This document shows positions 3,924 to 24,357 of a stretch of DNA of 64,000 bases, one piece after another. The notes beneath the pieces are model-generated. The model was not told where the DNA came from. It ran no database searches and saw only the letters and a program-made list of their open reading frames with translations. The DNA comes from Larkinella humicola (GTDB taxonomy: Bacteria > Bacteroidota > Bacteroidia > Cytophagales > Spirosomataceae): NCBI RefSeq assembly GCF_008727875.1, contig NZ_VTWS01000006.1, positions 186,001 to 250,000 on the forward strand, written 5' to 3'. A program made the translations under genes and the position numbers. Within the stretch, counting starts at the first letter, position 1. The number at the start of each line of letters is the position of its first letter.

Positions 3924-5195
3924 ATGAAAAAACAGAGTTTGGTTGCCCTTGCTTCCTTGTTGACAACGGGTGTCTTCGCCCAGCAGGAACCCATTCAGTT
4001 TACCGCCAAAGGAATTGTCGTTTTGTCTGATGCCGACATGGCTGCTTCCGCCCTGGTTGACGGTAATTTGTACAAGAGTAAAACCAGTCGCGACGCGCTG
4101 ACGGTTGTAAAATTCCCACTCGACCGCACTGGTCAGAACATTACCACCGCCCCCATTTCCAACTCCTCGGCGCTGTATGACAAAGCCGCTGTCGTAACGC
4201 CCAACGGACGCTTTGCGTTTGTACTGGAAGGCCGCGGCCAACTGGGCGACAGCGTATCCACGCTGAAAGGCGGTGTGAAAGAGTTGCCAGTCGCAGCCCG
4301 GATGTTTATTGTCGACCTGGCACCGGCCAAACCGACCGCCAAAGTGGTTAGCGTTGGCAACCTGCCGACGGCCATTACCATCAATCCGCAAGGCAACACC
4401 CTTGCTGTGGCTTCGGGGGATGCCGGGAAAGAAATGCGGTTGGTTGAAATCGATAATACCGGTACGCCCAAGCGGGTGATTACGGCCCCCTCCCCGGTTC
4501 CGGGTGCGCGCATCACGGATCTGGTCTGGAGCCCCGCTGGTGATTTTATTGCCTACGTGATTGAAGACACGCAGGAAGTCGGCGTGATGAAGTATTCACT
4601 CGATGCCGCCAAAAAACCAAACATCATCCCCCACGGCAAGCCGATCAAAGTAGGCGGTTTACCGGCCACCGGCAAATTCTCGCCAGACGGAAAATTCTTT
4701 ATTGTATCCGACATTAAGAAGGGAGCCAACGCGCAGGGCGCCGGGAAAGGCGAATTGTTCGTGGTCCAGTTCAGCACCGAAGACACGCCGGGCGAGCACA
4801 AGGTCGTTTCGCAAACCGCTTCGGGCGAAGGTGCCGAAGCCCTGACCGTCAGCCCCGATGGCTCCATGGTGATTGTCGCCAACTCCGGGCAGTCATACCA
4901 GCCGTTCAGCAATGCGGGGGCAGGCAAAAGCTCCCTGTCGGTGTTTGCGCTCGACAAAGAAGGCAAACTGACTCTGGCGAATGAATATCCGTTCGAGGGC
5001 ATCCTGCCCCAGAGCGTCGAGTTCGACAAGAGTGGCAATGCCATTGCGGTTGCGGTTTCCGAATACCTCGATTACGGCGACCGTTCAGGCGGTATTGAGT
5101 TCTGGAAAGTGACCAAAGGCGACAAACCGTCGCTGGAAAAAATGCCGGGTAAAATCAGCGTTGCCCGCGGTAGTCACACGGTACGGGTTTATTAG
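3924..5195 (+). CDS. Secreted beta-propeller (lactonase/YncE-like) protein
   Basis: 423 residues with a signal peptide (basic MKKQ, then a hydrophobic run ending GVFAQQ), so export to the periplasm is expected. The mature part has repeated blades of the type '-VTPNGRFAFV-', '-INPQGNTLAVAS-', '-FSPDGKFFIVS-', '-VSPDGSMVIVANS-', typical of seven-bladed propellers of the lactonase/YncE superfamily. I see no catalytic set that would fix an enzyme activity; a binding or scaffold role is equally possible. The start at 3924 is preferred because the promoter at 3880-3887 would begin the transcript near 3894 and because it starts directly at the signal peptide. The gene ends at an inverted repeat (5207-5244) shared with the convergent lipoprotein gene. 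Confidence 0.8.
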   Translation: MKKQSLVALASLLTTGVFAQQEPIQFTAKGIVVLSDADMAASALVDGNLYKSKTSRDALTVVKFPLDRTGQNITTAPISNSSALYDKAAVVTPNGRFAFVLEGRGQLGDSVSTLKGGVKELPVAARMFIVDLAPAKPTAKVVSVGNLPTAITINPQGNTLAVASGDAGKEMRLVEIDNTGTPKRVITAPSPVPGARITDLVWSPAGDFIAYVIEDTQEVGVMKYSLDAAKKPNIIPHGKPIKVGGLPATGKFSPDGKFFIVSDIKKGANAQGAGKGELFVVQFSTEDTPGEHKVVSQTASGEGAEALTVSPDGSMVIVANSGQSYQPFSNAGAGKSSLSVFALDKEGKLTLANEYPFEGILPQSVEFDKSGNAIAVAVSEYLDYGDRSGGIEFWKVTKGDKPSLEKMPGKISVARGSHTVRVY

Positions 5196-5245: not shown

Positions 5246-5542
5246 TTATACCCTCTCCCAGCGGAATTGCTTTTTGACTTTCTTCTGTTTTCCGTTGCCT
5301 TTGTCTTTTTTCAGCCCTTTGCGGTCGCTGGCCATGGAGGAGGACGCTCCGGCCCCTTTGCGGTTGGAGAGCCACCAGGTCGGGCTGTGCATCGTGCCAA
5401 AAACCGTTCCTCGATACACGCGTCCGCCATGCTGGTGTTCCAGTTTTACGTGGCAACTTTTGATCGGACAGTTGGATGCCATACATCCCGTCAGGAGCCA
5501 ACTACTCACTAAGCTTACCCACAATCCCTTGCTTGGTTTCAT
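5246..5542 (-). CDS. Small Cys- and Lys-rich lipoprotein, unknown function
   Basis: 98 residues with a lipoprotein signal peptide (hydrophobic LVSSWLLTGC; lipobox LTGC at about residue 17-20). The mature part begins with a second Cys pair in NCPIKSCHVKLEHQHGG, followed by a strongly basic, low-complexity tail. From memory, short lipoproteins with the CPIKSCHV core recur across Cytophagales as unnamed proteins; I know no function for them. The conserved Cys/His core (three Cys after the lipid anchor if the anchor is counted, plus three His) could bind a metal, but that is inference. It is convergent with the beta-propeller gene. Confidence 0.7.
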   Translation of the reverse strand: MKPSKGLWVSLVSSWLLTGCMASNCPIKSCHVKLEHQHGGRVYRGTVFGTMHSPTWWLSNRKGAGASSSMASDRKGLKKDKGNGKQKKVKKQFRWERV

Positions 5543-5629: not shown

Positions 5630-5887
5630 TTATCTTCCGAAAGCTAACTCATACCCGGCATTTACCAGATATTCGGCCACACGTGGCCGAACAACCCAAT
5701 AAACTCCGTTATCTCCGCGCAAAATCCAGTGATCACTTCCCTTTACATAGCGATTATTCGCGCAATCAATTGCCTGCATTAATGTCTTAAATTCTGATTG
5801 CCGTGCTTCTTTCAACATCTCGGCAAGGCGCGGAAAAGCCACGCTCCGCCGTAACCGTAACGTAATTGTTGAATCTCGAGAGTACAT
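5630..5887 (-). CDS. Unrecognised small protein
   Basis: 85 residues from the ATG at 5887. An in-frame start at 5929 would add 14 Cys/Asn-rich residues and would run through the palindrome at 5896-5924, so I prefer the shorter form. The sequence is mixed alpha/beta with a basic N-terminal region (TLRLRRSVAF) and a C-terminal stretch WILRGDNGVYWVVRPRVAEY. No family is recognised and no membrane segment or signal peptide is seen. It stands alone, with an AT-rich gap upstream. Confidence 0.55.
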   Translation of the reverse strand: MYSRDSTITLRLRRSVAFPRLAEMLKEARQSEFKTLMQAIDCANNRYVKGSDHWILRGDNGVYWVVRPRVAEYLVNAGYELAFGR

Positions 5888-6308: not shown

Positions 6309-7040
6309 ATGATCAAGCACAGCCATTCTTTACAATTGCGTACAATGAGAGCGGTGGCACTGGTAGTAGCCGGAAGTATTCTTGCGGCTGGTACAATGAC
6401 AGGATGTAAATCAATTCGAAAAAACACGAATAATACCCAGCGAGGTGCCATCATCGGAGCCGGGGCGGGGGCAGTTGCGGGTGGCCTCATTGGCCGCAAA
6501 TCAGGCAACACCGCCGTGGGTGCTATCCTGGGCGCTACCGTGGGTGGCGCAGGGGGCGCATTAATCGGTCGTCAAATGGATAAACAGGCGGAAGAACTTC
6601 GCCGGAGACTCGAAAATGCTCGCATCGAACGCGTTGGTGAGGGGATCAAAATCACGTTTGATTCCGACTTCCTGTTTGATGTGGATCAATATAATTTAAA
6701 ATCTGCGAATCGGGACAACATGACCAAACTGGCCGAAACCCTGAAAAAATACAACGATACGGAAGTGTTGATTGAAGGGCATGCCGACAATACCGGTTCC
6801 GATCAGCACAACCTGAAACTGTCGGAACGGCGGGCCAAAACCGTGGCCAAGCTACTACAGTCCGAAGGGATCAAAGGCAATCGTTTGACGGAGAAAGGCT
6901 ATGGCGAAAGCCAGCCGCTGGCCGACAACAGCAGTGTTTCGGGCCGTCAGCAAAACCGCCGGGTTGAAGTCGCCATCTTTGCGAACGAAAAATTACGAAA
7001 AGCCGCCGAACGCGGAACAATCGGAAATATAAACAGTTAA
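6309..7040 (+). CDS. Glycine-zipper OmpA-family outer-membrane lipoprotein
   Basis: 243 residues: a lipoprotein signal (hydrophobic ALVVAGSILAAGTMTGC; lipobox TMTGC), then a glycine-zipper segment (GAIIGAGAGAVAGGLIG and a second copy, GAILGATVGGAGGALIG) and a C-terminal OmpA domain that binds peptidoglycan (LIEGHADNTGSDQHNLKLS, RAKTVAKLL, GYGESQPLADN, NRRVEV). The protein should anchor in the outer membrane and tether it to the wall. In-frame starts exist at 6294 and 6345; 6309 gives a normal-length signal peptide, but the choice is uncertain. A hairpin terminator follows, then DUF2383. The family is a common member of envelope-stress gene sets. Confidence 0.9.
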   Translation: MIKHSHSLQLRTMRAVALVVAGSILAAGTMTGCKSIRKNTNNTQRGAIIGAGAGAVAGGLIGRKSGNTAVGAILGATVGGAGGALIGRQMDKQAEELRRRLENARIERVGEGIKITFDSDFLFDVDQYNLKSANRDNMTKLAETLKKYNDTEVLIEGHADNTGSDQHNLKLSERRAKTVAKLLQSEGIKGNRLTEKGYGESQPLADNSSVSGRQQNRRVEVAIFANEKLRKAAERGTIGNINS

Positions 7041-18496: not shown

Positions 18497-18784
18497 ATGA
18501 AACCGAACTTCAGTGGACTGGTCGTTGCGATATTGACAGGTGCAGCCTTGGGTCTTTTATTAGCACCGCGCAGTGGGAAAGATACCCGCAAAAAAATTAC
18601 AAATGACTCTGATAAGTTTCTGAAAGATTTGCAGGACACCATTTCGAATGGCTTCAACAGCATCCGGAATCAATATGACGATGCGCGGGAAAACCTGTCT
18701 TCCAAATACAATGACGCGGTTGATACCGTAGCGTCTCGCACGAAGGGGGCGGTTGAACGCGTTGAACGCAATTCTAAACATTAA
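18497..18784 (+). CDS. YtxH domain protein
   Basis: 95 residues: one N-terminal membrane helix LVVAILTGAALGLLLAP followed by the YtxH signature RSGKDTRKKI and a charged helical tail (DKFLKDLQDTISNGFNSI and beyond). YtxH proteins are general-stress membrane proteins without known activity. It is followed 50 bases later by a second YtxH gene and probably shares its transcript, since no terminator is seen between them. Confidence 0.9.
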   Translation: MKPNFSGLVVAILTGAALGLLLAPRSGKDTRKKITNDSDKFLKDLQDTISNGFNSIRNQYDDARENLSSKYNDAVDTVASRTKGAVERVERNSKH

Positions 18785-18834
18785 TTAATTAATTTGCTAC
18801 CTTCATACGTCGCAAACATAAATAAGGAAACACC

Positions 18835-19164
18835 ATGAAAAGTTCAAGAGATTTTCTGTTAGGATTTATTACAGGCGTAGTAGCAGGCATTTTGACGGCG
18901 CCCAAGAGCGGGCAGGAAAGCCGCCAATGGATTCAGGACGAAGCCGACAAACGCACAAAAGATCTTCAGGATCAATGGAGTAAGGGTGTTGAGCAGGTTA
19001 AATCCCAGGTCGAGCAGGTTAAGTCACAGGTAAACCAGTGGACTGGTAAACTGCAGGACGAGAGCGAAACCAAAAAAGAGAAGTTTAACGACAACGTTGA
19101 CAATCTGGCCAACAAGGCACACAGTGGCGTAGATTCTGCCAAACAATCGATCAAAATCGACTGA
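18835..19164 (+). CDS. YtxH domain protein, second copy
   Basis: 109 residues with the same plan as its neighbour: helix LLGFITGVVAGILTAP, signature KSGQESRQWI, then a helical coiled-coil-like tail that contains the direct repeat VEQVKSQ-VEQVKSQ and LANKAHSGVDSAKQSIK. The pair is best explained by tandem duplication, although the two have diverged strongly outside the membrane helix. A clear terminator follows at 19239. Confidence 0.9.
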   Translation: MKSSRDFLLGFITGVVAGILTAPKSGQESRQWIQDEADKRTKDLQDQWSKGVEQVKSQVEQVKSQVNQWTGKLQDESETKKEKFNDNVDNLANKAHSGVDSAKQSIKID

Positions 19165-19238
19165 TCGGCCCGTTGCCCTCCGGCTCAAACCGGGGCTTCA
19201 ATCTCACTCAATTGATTTACTCAACGATATGATCAGTG

Positions 19239-19275
19239 GCGAAACGTCGGGATTACCCGGCGTTTCGCTTTTTTG
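19239..19275 (+). terminator. Terminator of the YtxH pair
   Basis: GCGAAACG (19239-19246) pairs with CGTTTCGC (19261-19268), with a GC-rich upper stem, followed by TTTTTTG. Confidence 0.85.
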
Positions 19276-19486
19276 TTACTCAATTTATCTGCAACTTGTG
19301 CCTGCCAAACCAACAGTAGATTTTGGCAAATGGGCAAAAAACGGCATTTCCACAAGCAGAATGGCGGTTTTTCAACAGAATCAAACTGAATTCTGCTTAG
19401 GCCAGAAAATAACTAAGTAGTTTTCTTTGATTTTTTGGAGAAATTTTAATGTCTATGCTGTAAACAACTATTATATTTGCATACTA
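19276..19486. other. Non-coding gap upstream of the RNA candidates
   Basis: I see no convincing gene here. A -7 box TATATTTG at 19472-19479 is the likely promoter of the first RNA candidate. Confidence 0.4.
19472..19479 (+). promoter_or_regulatory. -7 box of the first RNA candidate
   Basis: TATATTTG matches TAnnTTTG exactly; the -33 element is not clear. Transcription would start near 19487. Confidence 0.45.
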
Positions 19487-19637
19487 ATTGTAGAAACAAC
19501 ATATTAAAGATAAAGATCCGGTTTATGATCGGGTCACAAACAAAAACAGCCTAAGCCTGAACGGGCGGCTGTTTTTAAATGGTGTGGATATAGTCGGAAA
19601 GCTATTCGGGCAGTCTCGGATAGCTTTTTTGTTTTAC
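19487..19637 (+). ncRNA. Candidate structured small RNA, copy 1
   Basis: About 150 nt from a -7 box to a terminator, without a plausible reading frame. Structure read by eye: hairpin A, GATCCG (19515-19520) with CGGGTC (19530-19535); hairpin B, AAAAACAGCC (19542-19551) with GGCTGTTTTT (19567-19576); the box AATGGTGTGGATA (19578-19590); then a terminator stem AAAGCTAT (19598-19605) with ATAGCTTT (19620-19627) and a T-run. The same order, with the box identical over 13 nt, recurs about 210 bases downstream. I do not recognise a known RNA family. Alternatives: two unrelated terminators with a chance match, or a cis-acting leader. Confidence 0.5.
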
Positions 19638-19660
19638 AGGCGTCCGGGTTTTCACCTGAT

Positions 19661-19706
19661 TTTAACCTGTCTTTAACATCGGTTTAATCTACTCCGTCTA
19701 CTTTTG
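19661..19706 (+). promoter_or_regulatory. Response-regulator operator (TTTAAC repeats, 11-bp step) and promoter
   Basis: TTTAAC at 19661 and 19672 and TTTAAT at 19683 recur at exactly 11-bp spacing, one helical turn apart, as in OmpR/PhoB-type binding sites. The last repeat ends 10 bases before a perfect -7 box TACTTTTG (19699-19706). The same arrangement, with the same 10-base gap, precedes the proton-channel gene at 22.1 kb. The OmpR-type regulator encoded at 19914 is the obvious candidate, implying autoregulation. Confidence 0.65.
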
Positions 19707-19713
19707 TTTATCA

Positions 19714-19847
19714 AAATTCCGCTGTAAGTCAGCTAGTTTCTTACATCAGGGAGGTTGAACATCAAAGCTGATGCAAATTAGCTTTGAATGGTGTGGATAG
19801 GATGAAAAAAGCTACCTGAAGATATATTTCGGGTAGCTTTTTTGTTT
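19714..19847 (+). ncRNA. Candidate structured small RNA or leader, copy 2
   Basis: About 133 nt from the TTTAAC promoter to a strong terminator, 66 bases upstream of the response-regulator start. Structure: TGTAAG (19723-19728) with CTTACA (19740-19745); TCAAAGCT (19762-19769) with AGCTTTGA (19780-19787); the box AATGGTGTGGATA (19787-19799); terminator AAAAAAGCTACC (19805-19816) with GGTAGCTTTTTT (19832-19843). The stems differ in sequence from copy 1 while the order is kept. Because the terminator lies inside the regulator's leader, it could be an attenuator as well as a separate RNA. Confidence 0.5.
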
Positions 19848-19913
19848 TATTGCGTTATATATGGTATTTCGACCTTGATTCATTCACATCGGGGTACGCT
19901 ATTCTTGGCAAGT

Positions 19914-20591
19914 ATGAAAATTCTGGTAGTAGAAGACGAACCTAAACTCGCTTCATTCGTGAAGAAGGGCCTGGAAGAACAGTCGTTCGAGGTTGATGTG
20001 GCGTTTGATGGACAAATCGGACGAACGATGGCTCTGAGCAATAGTTACGACGTGATTGTACTTGATGTGAACGTTCCGAAAATGAACGGCTACGATCTGG
20101 CGAAATCGCTGCGCTCCGAGAACATTAAAACACCCATTCTGATGCTGACAGCCATGGGTTCGCTCGATAACAAAGTGGCCGGTTTTGAAGCGGGGGCCGA
20201 CGATTATCTGGTTAAGCCCTTCGAGTTTCGCGAACTGCTGGCCCGGCTGCGGGCATTGAGCAAACGGACGATCGACACAAGTCAGCAGTCGAACCTACTG
20301 AAAGTAGCCGATCTGGAACTGGATCTGAACGAAAAAATCGCCCGGCGGGGTGGCAAACGAATCGAACTCACCGCTAAAGAATTTGCCTTGCTGGAATACC
20401 TGATGCGCAACCGGAGCCGGGTCGTTTCCCGGATCGACATCGCCGAAAAAGTGTGGGACATTCACTTCGACACCGGTACGAACGTCATCGATGTGTATGT
20501 CAATTTCCTGCGCAAAAAAGTAGACAAAGATTTCCCGGTCAAATTGATTCATACCGTCATCGGGATGGGATACATGTTAAAAGAGGAATAG
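19914..20591 (+). CDS. OmpR-family response regulator
   Basis: 225 residues: receiver (MKILVVEDEPKLASFV, phospho-acceptor in VIVLDVNVPKMNG, switch in LMLTAMG, Lys in YLVKPFEF) and a winged-helix DNA-binding domain (RGGKRIELTAKEFALLEYLM, recognition helix in SRIDIAEKVWD, wing VIHTVIGMGYML-like end). The sequence is nearest the CusR/CopR branch. The ATG at 19914 starts exactly at the first receiver strand; an upstream frame from 19842 would begin inside the terminator of the RNA candidate. It is followed 30 bases later by its kinase. The TTTAAC operator at 19661 suggests that it controls itself and the gene at 22134. Confidence 0.95.
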   Translation: MKILVVEDEPKLASFVKKGLEEQSFEVDVAFDGQIGRTMALSNSYDVIVLDVNVPKMNGYDLAKSLRSENIKTPILMLTAMGSLDNKVAGFEAGADDYLVKPFEFRELLARLRALSKRTIDTSQQSNLLKVADLELDLNEKIARRGGKRIELTAKEFALLEYLMRNRSRVVSRIDIAEKVWDIHFDTGTNVIDVYVNFLRKKVDKDFPVKLIHTVIGMGYMLKEE

Positions 20592-20621
20592 CGCTTCGCA
20601 GCCTCCTTTCACCTTACTGCC

Positions 20622-22037
20622 ATGAACATCAGAACCCGGCTCACGGTCCTTTTTGCGCTGCTGGTTGGTTCAATCATCCTGCTGTTTTCCCTCACCATCT
20701 ACTATTTGTTCGATCAGTATCGCGAGCGGGAGTTCTATGACCGTCTCCGCCAGAATGCGCTGGCAACCGCCCAATTGCTGGAGAATGTGGAGGTGAGCGG
20801 GATTACGGACAAAATGCTGCAGCAGATCGAACTGAATTACATGTCGCTCTACAAAGGACATGTAACCATCTTTTTGCCCAACAACCGGATTCTGCATTCG
20901 ACCGATTCCAAACGGGAGGTGATTTCCCTTCAGTTTCTGGAACAGGTTCGGAATGGCAAGGAAATTTTCAGGCGCAACGGCATGGTGGAAACCCTCGGTG
21001 TCCGGTTTACCGACCGCCATAACCGCATCCTGGTAATCGTGGCAACGGCTATCGACCGTTACGGTTTTACCAAGATCGAATGGTTGCGGGATATTCTGGT
21101 GATTAGCTGGATCGTCAGCATGGGCATTGTTCTGCTGGCGGGGTGGTTTTTTGCCGGCGATGCCCTCAAACCCGTTTCCGACATCATCGATCAGGTTAAC
21201 GACATTTCGGCTACCAACATCTACGCCCGGCTGCGCATCGGACGACCCAAGGACGAGCTGGCCAAGCTGGCGGCTACATTCAACGAAATGCTCGAACGGC
21301 TGGAGCAGGCGTTTATTCTTCAGAAAAACTTCGTTTCCCATGCCTCGCATGAACTGCTGACCCCGCTGACGGTGATGATGGGTCAGGTCGATGTAACCCT
21401 GATGCAGCCCCGCAAAGAATATGAATACAAACAGGCCCTGGAAAGTGTGCTGGAAGAAGGCAAAAAAATGAACAGCCTGGTCAACGGTCTGCTCGAACTG
21501 GCGCGGGTGAATGCCGACGCTGCCACGCTATCCTTTAAACCGGTGCGAATCGACGAGTTGCTCTGGCAGGGGCGCAGTCGGTTGCTGCAAAAGAATGAAG
21601 AATACCGGATCGATATCGAATACGAAAAACTCCCCGGCAACGAAGAAGAACTGATTGTGATGGGCGAAGAATCGCTCCTGCAAATGGCTTTTCAGAACCT
21701 GATCGAAAACGGCTGCAAGTATTCGAAAGACCGGCACATCGTGGTGACACTAAACGCAGGGGATGACGACATCAAACTGACGTTTACCGACCATGGATAC
21801 GGTATTCCACCGGAAGACATTCCCCATCTGTTCGAGCCCTTTTTTCGGTCCGAAACCACCTCCGGAATCATCGGGCATGGCATCGGGCTGGCCCTCACCT
21901 ACCGCATCATCACCATCCACAAGGGCCAGATCCGGGTGGAATCGGAAATCGGAAAAGGCACTTCCGTGGAAGTAACCGTACCGGTTCGCAAGGTTGTTTC
22001 AACCGAAAAACCGGTGGCTTTTGAACTGGACGAGTAA
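20622..22037 (+). CDS. Membrane sensor histidine kinase (HAMP, CusS-like)
   Basis: 471 residues: membrane helix 1 (TVLFALLVGSIILLFSLTIYY), a periplasmic sensor of about 130 residues, helix 2 (ILVISWIVSMGIVLLAGWFF), HAMP, HisKA with the His in SHASHELLTPLTVM, and HATPase_c (FQNLIENGCKYS, FTDHGYGIP, GHGIGLALTY). The H-box reads HELLTPL where HELRTPL is usual. Overall arrangement and the FFRSETTSG-like lid resemble metal-responsive CusS kinases, but the periplasmic part shows no clear metal site, so the signal is unknown. It is in an operon with the regulator at 19914. Confidence 0.94.
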   Translation: MNIRTRLTVLFALLVGSIILLFSLTIYYLFDQYREREFYDRLRQNALATAQLLENVEVSGITDKMLQQIELNYMSLYKGHVTIFLPNNRILHSTDSKREVISLQFLEQVRNGKEIFRRNGMVETLGVRFTDRHNRILVIVATAIDRYGFTKIEWLRDILVISWIVSMGIVLLAGWFFAGDALKPVSDIIDQVNDISATNIYARLRIGRPKDELAKLAATFNEMLERLEQAFILQKNFVSHASHELLTPLTVMMGQVDVTLMQPRKEYEYKQALESVLEEGKKMNSLVNGLLELARVNADAATLSFKPVRIDELLWQGRSRLLQKNEEYRIDIEYEKLPGNEEELIVMGEESLLQMAFQNLIENGCKYSKDRHIVVTLNAGDDDIKLTFTDHGYGIPPEDIPHLFEPFFRSETTSGIIGHGIGLALTYRIITIHKGQIRVESEIGKGTSVEVTVPVRKVVSTEKPVAFELDE

Positions 22038-22050
22038 GGCCAAATACCGA

Positions 22051-22107
22051 TTTAACCGGTTTTTAACTTGCCCTTAATTCTCTTTTAACAGCATTCCTTC
22101 ACCTTTG
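22051..22107 (+). promoter_or_regulatory. Four TTTAAC-type repeats at 11-bp steps plus promoter
   Basis: TTTAAC (22051), TTTAAC (22062), CTTAAT (22073) and TTTAAC (22084) are spaced exactly 11 bp. The last ends 10 bases before CACCTTTG (22100-22107), one mismatch from TAnnTTTG; transcription near 22114 fits the ATG at 22134. Spacing is identical to that at 19661-19706, so the same regulator should bind both. Confidence 0.65.
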
Positions 22108-22133: not shown

Positions 22134-23819
22134 ATGGAGTCTGCTGTTTTCATCTTTACTGCTGGTTGTAGCCTGGGCGTGTTTTTGTTCCGGGGGCAGA
22201 CGAAGTATTATTTCAGCCTTTTCCTCCACATTCTCCTTATCGTTACTGCATCTTCCTGGGCTTTCCGCGCGCTGTCGGCCGGTGGGCTGATGCAATTCAA
22301 TCTGCTGGAACAGGCCGGTTTTCTTTTACCCGTCAACATCGACAGTCTGTCGGCCTTTTTTTTGGGTGTCATCAGTCTGACCATGCTGACGGGCGTGCTG
22401 TTTGCTAATGGATATTTAAAGCGGTATCGCCAAACCCAATCGGATCGCCAACTGTCGTTTCACCACCTGGCGCTCCTGTGGCTCCACTTGTCCATGATTC
22501 TGGTTTGTACGCTGCGCGGAGGAGTCGCGTTTATGATTTCGTGGGAGCTGATGGCTCTGGCGGCATTTGGGCTGGTAATTTTCGAAGGCGAACGAAAAGA
22601 TATCCTCAGAACCGGTTATACGTACCTGCTCCAGATTCAAATTGGGTTTGCGTTTATCCTCGTGGCCTTTCTGATTGCCGGTTCGCAAGGACATTCTTTT
22701 GGTTTCGATAGCTTCGGTGCCTACTTTGTGACCCACAAACCGTTACCGGTTTTCCTGCTGCTGTTCATCGGATTCGGCAGTTATGCGGGATTCGTTCCTT
22801 TGCATAGCTGGCTCCCTCAAACGCAGCTAACGGCTCCATCGCACGTCTCTGCCATCATGTCGGGCGTACTGATTCAACTGGGCCTGTACGGCATTCTGCG
22901 GGTGCTGACCTATATCCATACCGACCTGGTTCCCATTGCCTTCCTCATCCTTGTTTTCTCGCTCCTGTCGGGGCTGGTTGGGATCCGGAACACCTTTTTC
23001 CAACACGATGGCAAGAAATGGCTGGCCTACAGCAGCATTGCCAACACCGGAGTTATTGGCATCGGGGTCGGGGTCGGATTACTGGGAATTGCTTTTAACG
23101 TTCCCGCTCTGGCCGCACTGGGGTTTACGGGGGGTATTTTACACATCGCCAACCATGCCTTGTCCAAGTCGCTGCTGTTTTTTGGCATTGGTTCCATTTA
23201 CCGGGCTACAAACACCCGGAACATCGACCAGTTGGGCGGTTTGATCCGAACCATGCCGAGAACCTCGTTTTTGTTCCTCCTCGGTGCGCTGGCCCTTTGC
23301 GGGTTGCCTCCCTTCAACGGCTTTGTGTCTGAATTTCTGATTTATCGTGGGCTTATCAAGGGCCTTTCCCTGCCTGTCGGCATTCTGAATCTGGCGATCT
23401 GGGCGGTTTTTTTGGGCCTCATCCTGATCAGCGGCTTCACGATAGTGGGTTTCACGAAAATCTTTGAAACGGCGTTCCTGGGAACTCCCCGCTCCGAATC
23501 CGCAGCACACGCTAAAGAAGTGACCGATGACCTGCTGGTGCCCCAGTTGCTGGCGAGCCTTTTCATACTGACGATCAGTATCTGGCCCACGTTTTTCCTG
23601 AGACTAACCGGCAAGGTGTCGGCTTTATACGTCACTGACCTGCATCCAATCGACGCGGCTGGCCCCACGCTGGCGTATGTCGGCAGTATTGGAGCCACAC
23701 TGGTTGGAGTTACACTTTTTGTCCTGTGGGTTCGGCATAAACCGCCTAAGCCTATTCGTTTCGACTATCATCCGCCCAATTCGTTTCGTAAGCCCAAAAA
23801 AGAACACGGGTTTGGGTAA
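22134..23819 (+). CDS. Orphan proton-conducting membrane subunit (HyfB/NuoL-like)
   Basis: 561 residues with about 14 membrane helices. It carries the antiporter-family core: MISWELMALAAF (the Glu of the proton path), HSWLPQTQLTAPSHVSAIMS, KKWLAYSSIANTG and HIANHALSKSLLFF (the Lys and His of the channel), DQLGGLIRTMPRT and GLPPFNGFVSEF. These place it with HyfB/NuoL/MrpA-like subunits of proton-pumping complexes. No other complex subunit and no DabA-type partner is nearby: downstream lies an unrelated convergent operon. It may work alone as a cation/proton transporter or join a complex encoded elsewhere. The ATG at 22134 is preferred to one at 22128, two codons upstream. The TTTAAC operator links it to the two-component system. 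Confidence 0.88.
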   Translation: MESAVFIFTAGCSLGVFLFRGQTKYYFSLFLHILLIVTASSWAFRALSAGGLMQFNLLEQAGFLLPVNIDSLSAFFLGVISLTMLTGVLFANGYLKRYRQTQSDRQLSFHHLALLWLHLSMILVCTLRGGVAFMISWELMALAAFGLVIFEGERKDILRTGYTYLLQIQIGFAFILVAFLIAGSQGHSFGFDSFGAYFVTHKPLPVFLLLFIGFGSYAGFVPLHSWLPQTQLTAPSHVSAIMSGVLIQLGLYGILRVLTYIHTDLVPIAFLILVFSLLSGLVGIRNTFFQHDGKKWLAYSSIANTGVIGIGVGVGLLGIAFNVPALAALGFTGGILHIANHALSKSLLFFGIGSIYRATNTRNIDQLGGLIRTMPRTSFLFLLGALALCGLPPFNGFVSEFLIYRGLIKGLSLPVGILNLAIWAVFLGLILISGFTIVGFTKIFETAFLGTPRSESAAHAKEVTDDLLVPQLLASLFILTISIWPTFFLRLTGKVSALYVTDLHPIDAAGPTLAYVGSIGATLVGVTLFVLWVRHKPPKPIRFDYHPPNSFRKPKKEHGFG

Positions 23820-23892: not shown

Positions 23893-24357
23893 CTATGTCA
23901 GAAACCCTTCCAGAGAGGCTGGCGAATAATTGACGTTTTTCAGCGTTTTGTTGTCGGCTGTGCGATACACCAGGTATTTCCCATCGGACTCCACGTAATG
24001 GCATTCTACGCCTTTTGCCTGGTAATGGCGAACGGTTGCTTCGGCTTCTTCCACCGTCAGACAGGCTTTGCTGAGGTTCGAACGCTGGACTTCGTCAAAT
24101 AAGGCTTTGAACCGGTCGCCCAGCCCGAATTCCAGAATGGCGCCAGCCAGCACATACTGCAAATCGCAGAGCGCGTCGGCTACTTCCACCAGGTCTTTTT
24201 CCAGAATGGCGACTTCCAGTTCTTTCAATTCCTCGGCCAGCAGCGCAACGCGGAGCTGACAGCGGGTTTCGGACGGAATCTGAGGGGTTTCTAAAACCGG
24301 GTGGTGAAAAGTCCGGTGAAATTCGGCAACAGCGTTTAATGAATCGGGCGTTTGCAT
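23893..24357 (-). CDS. MazG-like nucleotide pyrophosphohydrolase
   Basis: 154 residues with the all-alpha NTP-pyrophosphatase core: the metal-binding ExxEL pattern in LLAEELKELEVA and the matching EVADALCDLQYV helix, in which Glu and Asp bind Mg. Such enzymes hydrolyse nucleoside triphosphates to monophosphate and pyrophosphate, often for house-cleaning; the substrate here is not evident. A C-terminal part of about 50 residues (GVECHYVESDGKYLVYRTAD) extends beyond the core. It is the last gene of the aroQ-aminotransferase-marC-mazG operon. Confidence 0.85.
   Translation of the reverse strand: MQTPDSLNAVAEFHRTFHHPVLETPQIPSETRCQLRVALLAEELKELEVAILEKDLVEVADALCDLQYVLAGAILEFGLGDRFKALFDEVQRSNLSKACLTVEEAEATVRHYQAKGVECHYVESDGKYLVYRTADNKTLKNVNYSPASLEGFLT

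Follow-up and report, generated by a model that had tools for sequence, protein, structure and literature searches.

Conserved direct-repeat arrays beside a CusR-like two-component system of Larkinella: candidate operators for a NuoL-like gene and a terminated RNA

Introduction

Which promoters does an OmpR-type response regulator of Larkinella humicola (Bacteroidota; Spirosomataceae) act upon, and is its own among them? The question is raised by a locus within the 64,000-nucleotide stretch of DNA analysed here (assembly GCF_008727875.1, contig NZ_VTWS01000006.1, positions 186,001 to 250,000; hereafter the window), where two arrays of TTTAAC-like direct repeats lie, one (array 1) upstream of the regulator gene and its sensor kinase gene, the other (array 2) between the kinase gene and the gene for a NuoL/HyfB-like membrane protein. 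An initial annotation of this DNA, made from its letters alone, had proposed that the regulator activates itself and the NuoL-like gene through these repeats. To our knowledge, little is known of the rules by which two-component operators are built in Bacteroidota other than the model species. We consider it probable that the arrays are operators of this regulator, that they drive the NuoL-like gene and a terminated RNA (RNA2) lying between array 1 and the regulator gene, and that RNA2 and its sibling RNA1 pair with the 5' leaders of other messages.

Results

Array 1 reads TTTAAC (19661-19666), TTTAAC (19672-19677), TTTAAT (19683-19688), ten bases and the box TACTTTTG (19699-19706); array 2 reads TTTAAC (22051-22056), TTTAAC (22062-22067), CTTAAT (22073-22078), TTTAAC (22084-22089), ten bases and the box CACCTTTG (22100-22107). 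Direct reading thus confirms the 11-bp steps and the 10-bp gap to a -7 box that had been described for both arrays, and adds to array 1 a degenerate first unit, TTTCAC (19650-19655), which had been overlooked, so that both arrays have four units. TAnnTTTG is given, in the part of PMC7366714 used here, as the -7 consensus of the Bacteroides primary sigma factor, confirmed in Flavobacterium. The gap was scanned in 718 kb of sequence from 60 long loci, among them orthologues and loci picked for matching the pattern with its box; a search by the units alone found 37 distinct four-unit arrays against 2 in the reversed control. The full NANNTTTG box stands at gap 10 in 22 of these 37 arrays and in at most two at any other single gap, and a box with at least four of the five letters stands there in 32, as against at most three at any other single gap.

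The initial annotation held that such a lattice is unlikely by chance, and we agree. A two-unit pattern (at most one mismatch) matches eight times in the window where shuffles average 1.38, and a three-unit pattern (at most three mismatches) four times where they average 0.09, numbers that none of 100 shuffles reached in either case; with zero mismatches the three-unit pattern occurs in the 7.86-Mb genome only at arrays 1 and 2. With up to two mismatches and no -7 box it is no commoner genome-wide than its reversed control (14+15, or 29, against 18+14, or 32), and the box is therefore needed in the pattern. When the box is required at the fixed gap, a genome scan of the kind that had been suggested for TTTAAC units gives 13 placements, as against one for the reversed pattern; these fall at 10 distinct places, because an array with overlapping placements enters the count more than once. 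Across the family, pattern and box (at most one mismatch) are found in 93 of 121 genomes, with 234 placements, overlaps included, against 8 in the reversed control. The operator, first described as belonging to two promoters, is instead a type of promoter shared by several paralogous systems of this genome and present through much of the family. A second lattice, of CTTAACATTGG-like repeats at 11-bp steps with the same 10-bp gap, was also seen (for example in genomes G160, G170 and G165); we take these arrays, from their look, to resemble pho boxes.

Conservation was followed in nine Larkinella genomes, our own included, and in the family Spirosomataceae. The same NuoL-like gene is present in Larkinella punicea, Larkinella sp. 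C7, L. knui, L. rosea, L. terrae and L. arboricola (six of seven loci); the seventh locus belongs to a Flavobacteriales metagenome-assembled genome, at 48% identity. In seven of the eight same-genus relatives the orthologues of the regulator (95.6-99.1% identity), of the kinase (82.8-96.6%) and of the NuoL-like protein (60-85%) are encoded together. The repeats upstream of orthologues, on which the initial annotation had let its reading stand or fall, are conserved: both arrays are kept in all eight genomes that hold both genes (the seven relatives and the window), while their five-base spacers vary. Among the half-sites of array 1 only unit 1 differs between genomes, being TTTCAC in six and TTTTAG in two, and among those of array 2 only unit 3, at its first base; the others (units 2-4 and units 1, 2 and 4, respectively) are the same throughout. 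The eighth relative, G007, which is without the NuoL-like gene and array 2, keeps array 1, RNA1, RNA2, the regulator (93.8%) and the kinase (75%).

The regulator has the receiver and winged-helix Trans_reg_C domains of the OmpR/PhoB family and is encoded beside a HAMP-HisKA-HATPase kinase, and the arrays have the form of OmpR/PhoB-type operators: direct repeats, helical spacing and a constant distance from a promoter box. Its best NCBIfam match is TIGR01387 (CusR/CopR/CzcR), at 258.6 bits, below the cut-off of 279.2; it also stays below the cut-offs for PhoB (177.1 bits, cut-off 296.2) and for the PmrA (168.9, cut-off 330) and CpxR (140.3, cut-off 341) equivalogs. Of 106 regulator homology matches in its own genome, 14 align over nearly the whole regulator, and seven of these, our regulator included, form one clade with at least 53% identity. 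Arrays (score at least 24/29, within about 6 kb) are found near six of the seven regulators of this CusR-like clade and near none of the seven other OmpR-type regulators of the same genome, with reversed controls at zero. This, together with the promoter-type geometry, strengthens the link between the arrays and the encoded regulator that the initial annotation had drawn.

The arrays of the window and of systems C11, C13:368k and C17 each lie at most about 0.2 kb downstream of a kinase match. The array at C11 precedes an outer membrane efflux protein (OEP), that at C13:368k a 129-residue secreted-looking protein without a Pfam match, and that at C17 (C17:552k) a HlyD-type protein, with a 116-residue open reading frame (ORF) starting directly after the last unit. 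At C13:527k the array is about 1.4 kb downstream of its regulator gene and is followed by a small ORF and a sulfate-permease-type protein; at C19 it is divergent from its regulator and upstream of another OEP. Elsewhere, an array lies upstream of a DUF4136 protein (C19:91.8k) and a weaker match upstream of a ClC channel (C13:1031k). In another genus (G089) an array lies downstream of the orthologous kinase and upstream of a sulfate-permease-type protein, with a box, GTGTTTTG, that is without the A. The stretch around the recognition helix is, by eye, nearly identical in all seven clade regulators, so that the assignment of each array to its neighbour rests on position and on unit type, which differs by system (TTTAAC in the window, mostly TCTAAY at C13:368k). 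That the neighbouring regulator activates the NuoL-like gene through array 2 would be the simplest reading.

The case of array 1 is different. Between it and the regulator gene lies a conserved block of about 135 nucleotides, the predicted RNA2, in which GGGAGGTTGAAC is followed by a stem, by AATGGTGTGGATA and by an intrinsic terminator; it folds with z -5.4 against shuffles, none of 200 being as good, and its stem P1 joins 19763-19769 to 19780-19786. Upstream of array 1 lies the candidate RNA1, with the same 13-mer, AAUGGUGUGGAUA, and a different terminator; the box proposed for it, TATATTTG, is also present in G007 and not in G234 or G235. The order RNA1, array, RNA2, regulator is kept in nine of nine genus genomes and in G234, G235, G085, G010, G174 and G175, which belong to three other genera. 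G176 has its RNA1 at the end of a contig and shows no array that reaches the threshold.

Because this terminated RNA separates array 1 from the regulator gene in all nine genomes, the simple self-activation of the initial annotation is unsupported, and we dropped array 1 as a direct promoter of the regulator gene as the sole reading; most likely it drives a regulatory RNA. RNA2 and the regulator gene are 65 bases apart and no array in this interval reaches the threshold, so that expression of regulator and kinase would follow by read-through or from another promoter. Autoregulation itself still appears likely, because arrays precede the regulator gene in G012 (a weaker one, 25/29) or precede a short ORF in front of it (G234, G235).

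A covariance model built on the 3' part of RNA1 (R1) matches 148 of 222 family genomes at E of at most 0.01, many of them weakly, and we do not claim those near E 0.001-0.01 as true. Of 291 genomes of the order, 39 match at E of at most 0.001, and 33 of these belong to the family. An occurrence of the RNA outside the family was set aside after two of the six weak order-level genomes were opened (L275, L276), one being without the motif and the other having part of it. In our own genome five of the seven R1 matches are weak (E 0.0033 to 0.39). Among 20 further R1 loci that were opened, the orthologous regulator lies downstream in five (in one, 1.3 kb off) and not in the other 15. G148, G146 and G212 have 9, 6 and 8 R1 matches; in G146 and G148 the copies that were opened differ both in terminator and in neighbours.

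For stem P1 we aligned 19 of 21 RNA2-type candidates, a set that omits two Larkinella genomes (L060, L063), after leaving out L172, which is nearly a duplicate, and L269:2702-2804, a copy of RNA1 type. In all 19 sequences P1 can form its first six pairs and in 17 its seventh, with changes compensated between genera; the paired fraction over eight columns is 0.908, against 0.807 for shuffled arms (0/2000). Neither RNA matches any of 4227 Rfam models at the gathering score, and an Rfam identity was rejected, matches below that score being at chance level.

The invariant 13-mer is the candidate seed of these RNAs. Hand sums over the nine Larkinella genomes, with at most one mismatch allowed, give 156 occurrences of the 13-mer and 44 of its reversed control; beside the 18 copies in RNA1 and RNA2 there are 27 exact copies where about two are expected by base counting. 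We counted a site as an antisense leader site when it ends at most 80 nucleotides upstream of, or abuts, an ORF of at least 100 residues, the ORFs being mechanical and not annotated genes. All 27 exact sites were opened, and 40 of 111 one-mismatch sites (10/10 in our own genome, 12/12 in G004, 12/12 in G001 and 6/10 in G005). Of the exact sites, 19 are antisense in apparent leaders and none is sense, as against 234 of 4000 random positions (5.9%) in the same loci; of the one-mismatch sites, five are antisense in leaders and three sense. Eight of these exact leader sites belong to orthologues of one 115-residue secreted-looking protein, in all of which the site is invariant; in this leader it begins 17 nucleotides after a -7-like box. 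Other genes with leader sites encode a GH127-like enzyme, a helix-hairpin-helix protein, a methyltransferase, a SnoaL-like, a DoxX-like (below cut-off) and a heparinase-like protein and an AcrB-type pump, the gene for which lies, in G004, between two arrays of the paralogous-system kind. Predicted target duplex energies are -41.2 kcal/mol for RNA1 and -37.0 kcal/mol for RNA2, where shuffled targets average -28.1 (RNA2). In L085, L290, L314 and L315 the exact complement also lies in a leader-like block (a CACCTTTG box, the site and a T-run) with no obvious gene close by, which is possibly another RNA.

The NuoL-like protein has a Proton_antipo_M domain (140.4 bits), and its best match among solved structures is HycC (E 2e-53). 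In proton-pumping NuoL/M and HyfB/HycC antiporter-type subunits a lysine of transmembrane helix 7 is essential. The lysine of VVMKIG in HycC aligns with the glutamine of VLIQLG here, and this position is glutamine in seven and proline in one of the eight Larkinella orthologues. No partner subunit gene adjoins: upstream is the kinase, and downstream the nearest ORF of gene size (23893-24357) runs on the opposite strand. The 'orphan proton channel' of the initial annotation is thus a stand-alone gene, as it had said, and the label of proton channel is unproven, because the lysine is replaced in all eight proteins and no partner adjoins. In addition, the glutamate of NGFVSE is glycine in G002 and that of AWELM is glutamine in G001.

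Table 1. Features of the locus, numbered from the first base of the window
Feature	Position	Strand	Basis
Candidate -7 box TATATTTG for RNA1	19472..19479	+	sequence, inference only
RNA1: hairpin, 13-mer AAUGGUGUGGAUA (19578-19590), intrinsic terminator	19545..19637	+	fold z -3.8; covariance model R1
Operator array 1, four half-sites, 11-bp steps, first degenerate	19650..19688	+	sequence, conservation
-7 box TACTTTTG, 10 bp 3' of array 1	19699..19706	+	sequence, conservation, gap scan
RNA2: conserved GGUUGAAC stretch, stem P1, 13-mer AAUGGUGUGGAUA (19787-19799), terminator (~19805-19843)	19712..19848	+	fold; ends predicted
Response regulator, Response_reg + Trans_reg_C, CusR/CopR-like (below family cut-off)	19914..20591	+	domain/NCBIfam profile matches
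Sensor histidine kinase, HAMP-HisKA-HATPase	20622..22037	+	domain profile matches
Operator array 2, four half-sites, 11-bp steps	22051..22089	+	sequence, conservation
-7 box CACCTTTG, 10 bp 3' of array 2	22100..22107	+	sequence, conservation, gap scan
NuoL/NuoM/HyfB-like membrane protein (Proton_antipo_M), stand-alone	22134..23819	+	domain and structure-homologue matches
Leader site in candidate target mRNAs, UAUCCACACCAUU; 5'-leader motif TATCCACACCATT			

Discussion

Judged by their sequence, the arrays are real, conserved and functional-looking, and the RNA coupled to array 1 is the more novel finding of the two. The closest known operator is that of PmrA (PmrAB of Salmonella and Klebsiella), an OmpR/PhoB-family regulator which, in the portion of PMC3973317 drawn on here, binds head-to-tail to half-sites CTTAAG/NTTAAT five bases apart, CTTAAT/CCTAAG and TTTAAT/TTTAAG. 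The window's units TTTAAC, TTTAAT and CTTAAT have the same form and the same five-base spacer; unlike those PmrA half-sites, most end in C or T and not in G, four or more are present in Larkinella in place of two, and the promoter is of the Bacteroidota -7 kind. Of the recognition residues named in that portion (Thr187, Asn188, His193, His195), Thr187 and Asn188 match by spacing the T-N of T-N-V-I-D-V-Y-V-N in our regulator, whereas the two histidines would be Tyr and Asn, the register being set by eye (PMC3973317, in part). We conclude that the window's operator looks PmrA-like in its working and that the regulator is not a PmrA member.

CusR/CopR/CzcR is the best profile match, and the apparent targets of the paralogues include OEP and HlyD-type efflux proteins; however, the score is below the cut-off and the E. 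coli cus box is an inverted repeat, where the window has direct repeats. The CpxR box, GTAAA-N5-GTAAA, with which the initial annotation (our one source for it) compared the repeats, is a direct repeat of similar period; the core TTAA preceded by T or C suits PmrA better, and we ruled out CpxR as a model on its 140.3 against 341 bits and on the closer half-sites of PmrA (PMC3973317, in the same portion). A literature search gave no confirmation for one further likeness, that to the B. subtilis PhoP site, TTAACA-N5, which is also similar in look. The pho box has half-sites of TGTCA type, and it differs from the window's arrays in this and in the sigma factor, with our regulator below the PhoB cut-off. 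What the two have in common is direct repeats near the promoter box in place of an upstream element, the E. coli pho box usually lying near the -10 region and replacing the -35 element, as stated in a section of PMC4971064.

Among RNAs, the nearest comparison is with Bacteroides small RNAs such as GibS, which, in the part of PMC7366714 already used, are intergenic and terminated, in a genus with no obvious Hfq or ProQ homologue. RNA1 and RNA2 are likewise intergenic, with a candidate TAnnTTTG promoter and an intrinsic terminator; unlike the Bacteroides RNAs they form a tandem pair, are tied to a response regulator, have an invariant 13-mer and match nothing in Rfam. No title or abstract naming these arrays or this RNA was found in the open-licence literature, an absence that is weak evidence.

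We propose that each array would bind four head-to-tail protomers of the adjacent CusR/PmrA-like regulator and that, with the last half-site 10 bp upstream of the -7 box, the bound regulator would replace the -33 contact in a PhoB-like activation. Array 2 would then switch on the stand-alone NuoL/HyfB-like gene, and array 1 the terminated RNA2 of about 135 nucleotides; the regulator and kinase genes would be expressed only by terminator read-through or from a separate promoter. The invariant 13-mer of RNA1 and RNA2 may pair with its exact complement in 5' leaders, several of them of genes for envelope or secreted proteins, and would so extend the regulon after transcription. The arrays with their geometry and conservation, the clade link, the RNA structure and the antisense enrichment are read from the letters; from these we infer binding, activation, the existence and ends of the transcripts, and pairing. 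Tentatively, and with less confidence, we suggest that this may be a dual regulon of the Spirosomataceae, in which one operator type activates membrane genes and also drives a new, lineage-wide family of small RNAs whose 13-nucleotide seed pairs near mRNA 5' ends, that of the AcrB-type pump gene of G004 included, and thereby links paralogous systems almost alike in operator and in recognition stretch.

Several observations weigh against this proposal. C13:1008k is the one regulator of the seven in the clade without an array; the arrays at C19 (C19:41k), C17:552k and C13:527k are imperfect (a poor box, a score of 25/29 and a degenerate last unit, respectively), and array 2 of G001 has an imperfect -7 box, GAATTTTA. 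Since there are paralogous regulators whose recognition stretches are almost the same and whose arrays are similar (TCTAAY as against TTTAAC), the neighbouring regulator is a candidate for the cognate one. In genus g5 two inspected regulator-linked copies of the RNA have no array upstream at threshold 23, and stand-alone copies, not near the regulator, occur in genera g5, g9 and g46, so that the link of array to RNA is not universal. The predicted fold of RNA2 partly takes in the 13-mer, and in P1 neither pair types (544/2000) nor double changes (260/2000) rise above shuffles. As to the leaders, eight of the 19 sites are orthologues of one small secreted gene, grouping the sites by hand into families turns 19 of 27 into 8 of 13, the ORF at the L315 site is probably spurious, and the duplex energies do not go beyond the best of 200 shuffles (-43.2 kcal/mol).

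Two alternatives survive best, and we regard both as unlikely. RNA2, and RNA1 with it, could be cis-acting attenuators, in which a ligand or a leader peptide (AUG GUG UGG AUA and a stop) opens the terminator and nothing acts in trans. This would suit the RNA1-like elements that lie shortly upstream of the regulator, with no nearby array at threshold 23, in G089, G024, G233, G124 and G116, and in both RNAs the 13-mer would read as a very short ORF soon closed by a stop. However, the 13-mer is invariant at wobble positions too, and L152 (G021) and L151 (G146, RNA2-type) have lost the early stop, which together led us to disfavour a peptide MVWI-stop; the stand-alone copies and the enrichment of antisense leader sites also speak against attenuation, and no anti-terminator pairing was seen when looked for by eye.

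The other is that the arrays are bound by a different regulator, by several cross-talking paralogues or by one of PhoB type, the local two-component system not being the main controller; to this we give equally little credence. The recognition stretch that seven paralogues have in common, and the occurrence of the same lattice at many sites in the family, CTTAACATTGG-type arrays included, would fit with it; yet as many as three arrays per locus cluster round orthologues of this very two-component system (genera g1, g50, g34 and g3), and unit types differ between systems, both of which tell against it.

Repression, with the bound regulator blocking RNA polymerase, seems very improbable: the arrays do cover the would-be -33 contact region, but a fixed 10-bp gap is not needed for a repressor site and is expected for activation that replaces the -33 contact, as at the E. 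coli pho boxes (PMC4971064, same section). Coincidence of A+T-rich promoter sequence, to which the lack of excess of the boxless pattern might point, is hardly credible beside the confinement of zero-mismatch placements to two arrays kept in eight genomes and a box-coupled enrichment of 13 to 1 in the genome and 234 to 8 in 121 family genomes.

If activation by the neighbouring regulator holds, a rule of four half-sites YYTAAY at 11 bp, then 10 bp, then a -7 box would make targets predictable from sequence and allow regulons to be mapped. That one genome has seven paralogues with almost the same recognition stretch, six of them beside similar operators, would make insulation against cross-talk directly testable. 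An RNA without an Rfam match, recurrent in the family, would bring a testable 13-nucleotide pairing rule to the phylum, which matters where, as in Bacteroides, there is no obvious Hfq or ProQ homologue (PMC7366714, in the part used).

Finally, the surroundings of the RNAs have features of their own. An extra array lies upstream of RNA1 in G007, G234 and G235 (L121 ~6653-6751, L148 ~4929-5027 and L149 ~4583-4678), where it precedes a peptide of about 32 residues ending in ...AYSCGA, AYSCSN or AYSCG; none was noticed by eye in window 19165-19545. The array downstream of RNA2 in G234 and G235 (L148 ~5679-5732, L149 ~5265-5401) precedes a short ORF with a common GGATTCCGTACC stretch, and then the regulator. 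Upstream of RNA1 in the window (18497-19164) are two tandem YtxH-domain genes, and similar ORFs are found there in G007, G234 and G235.

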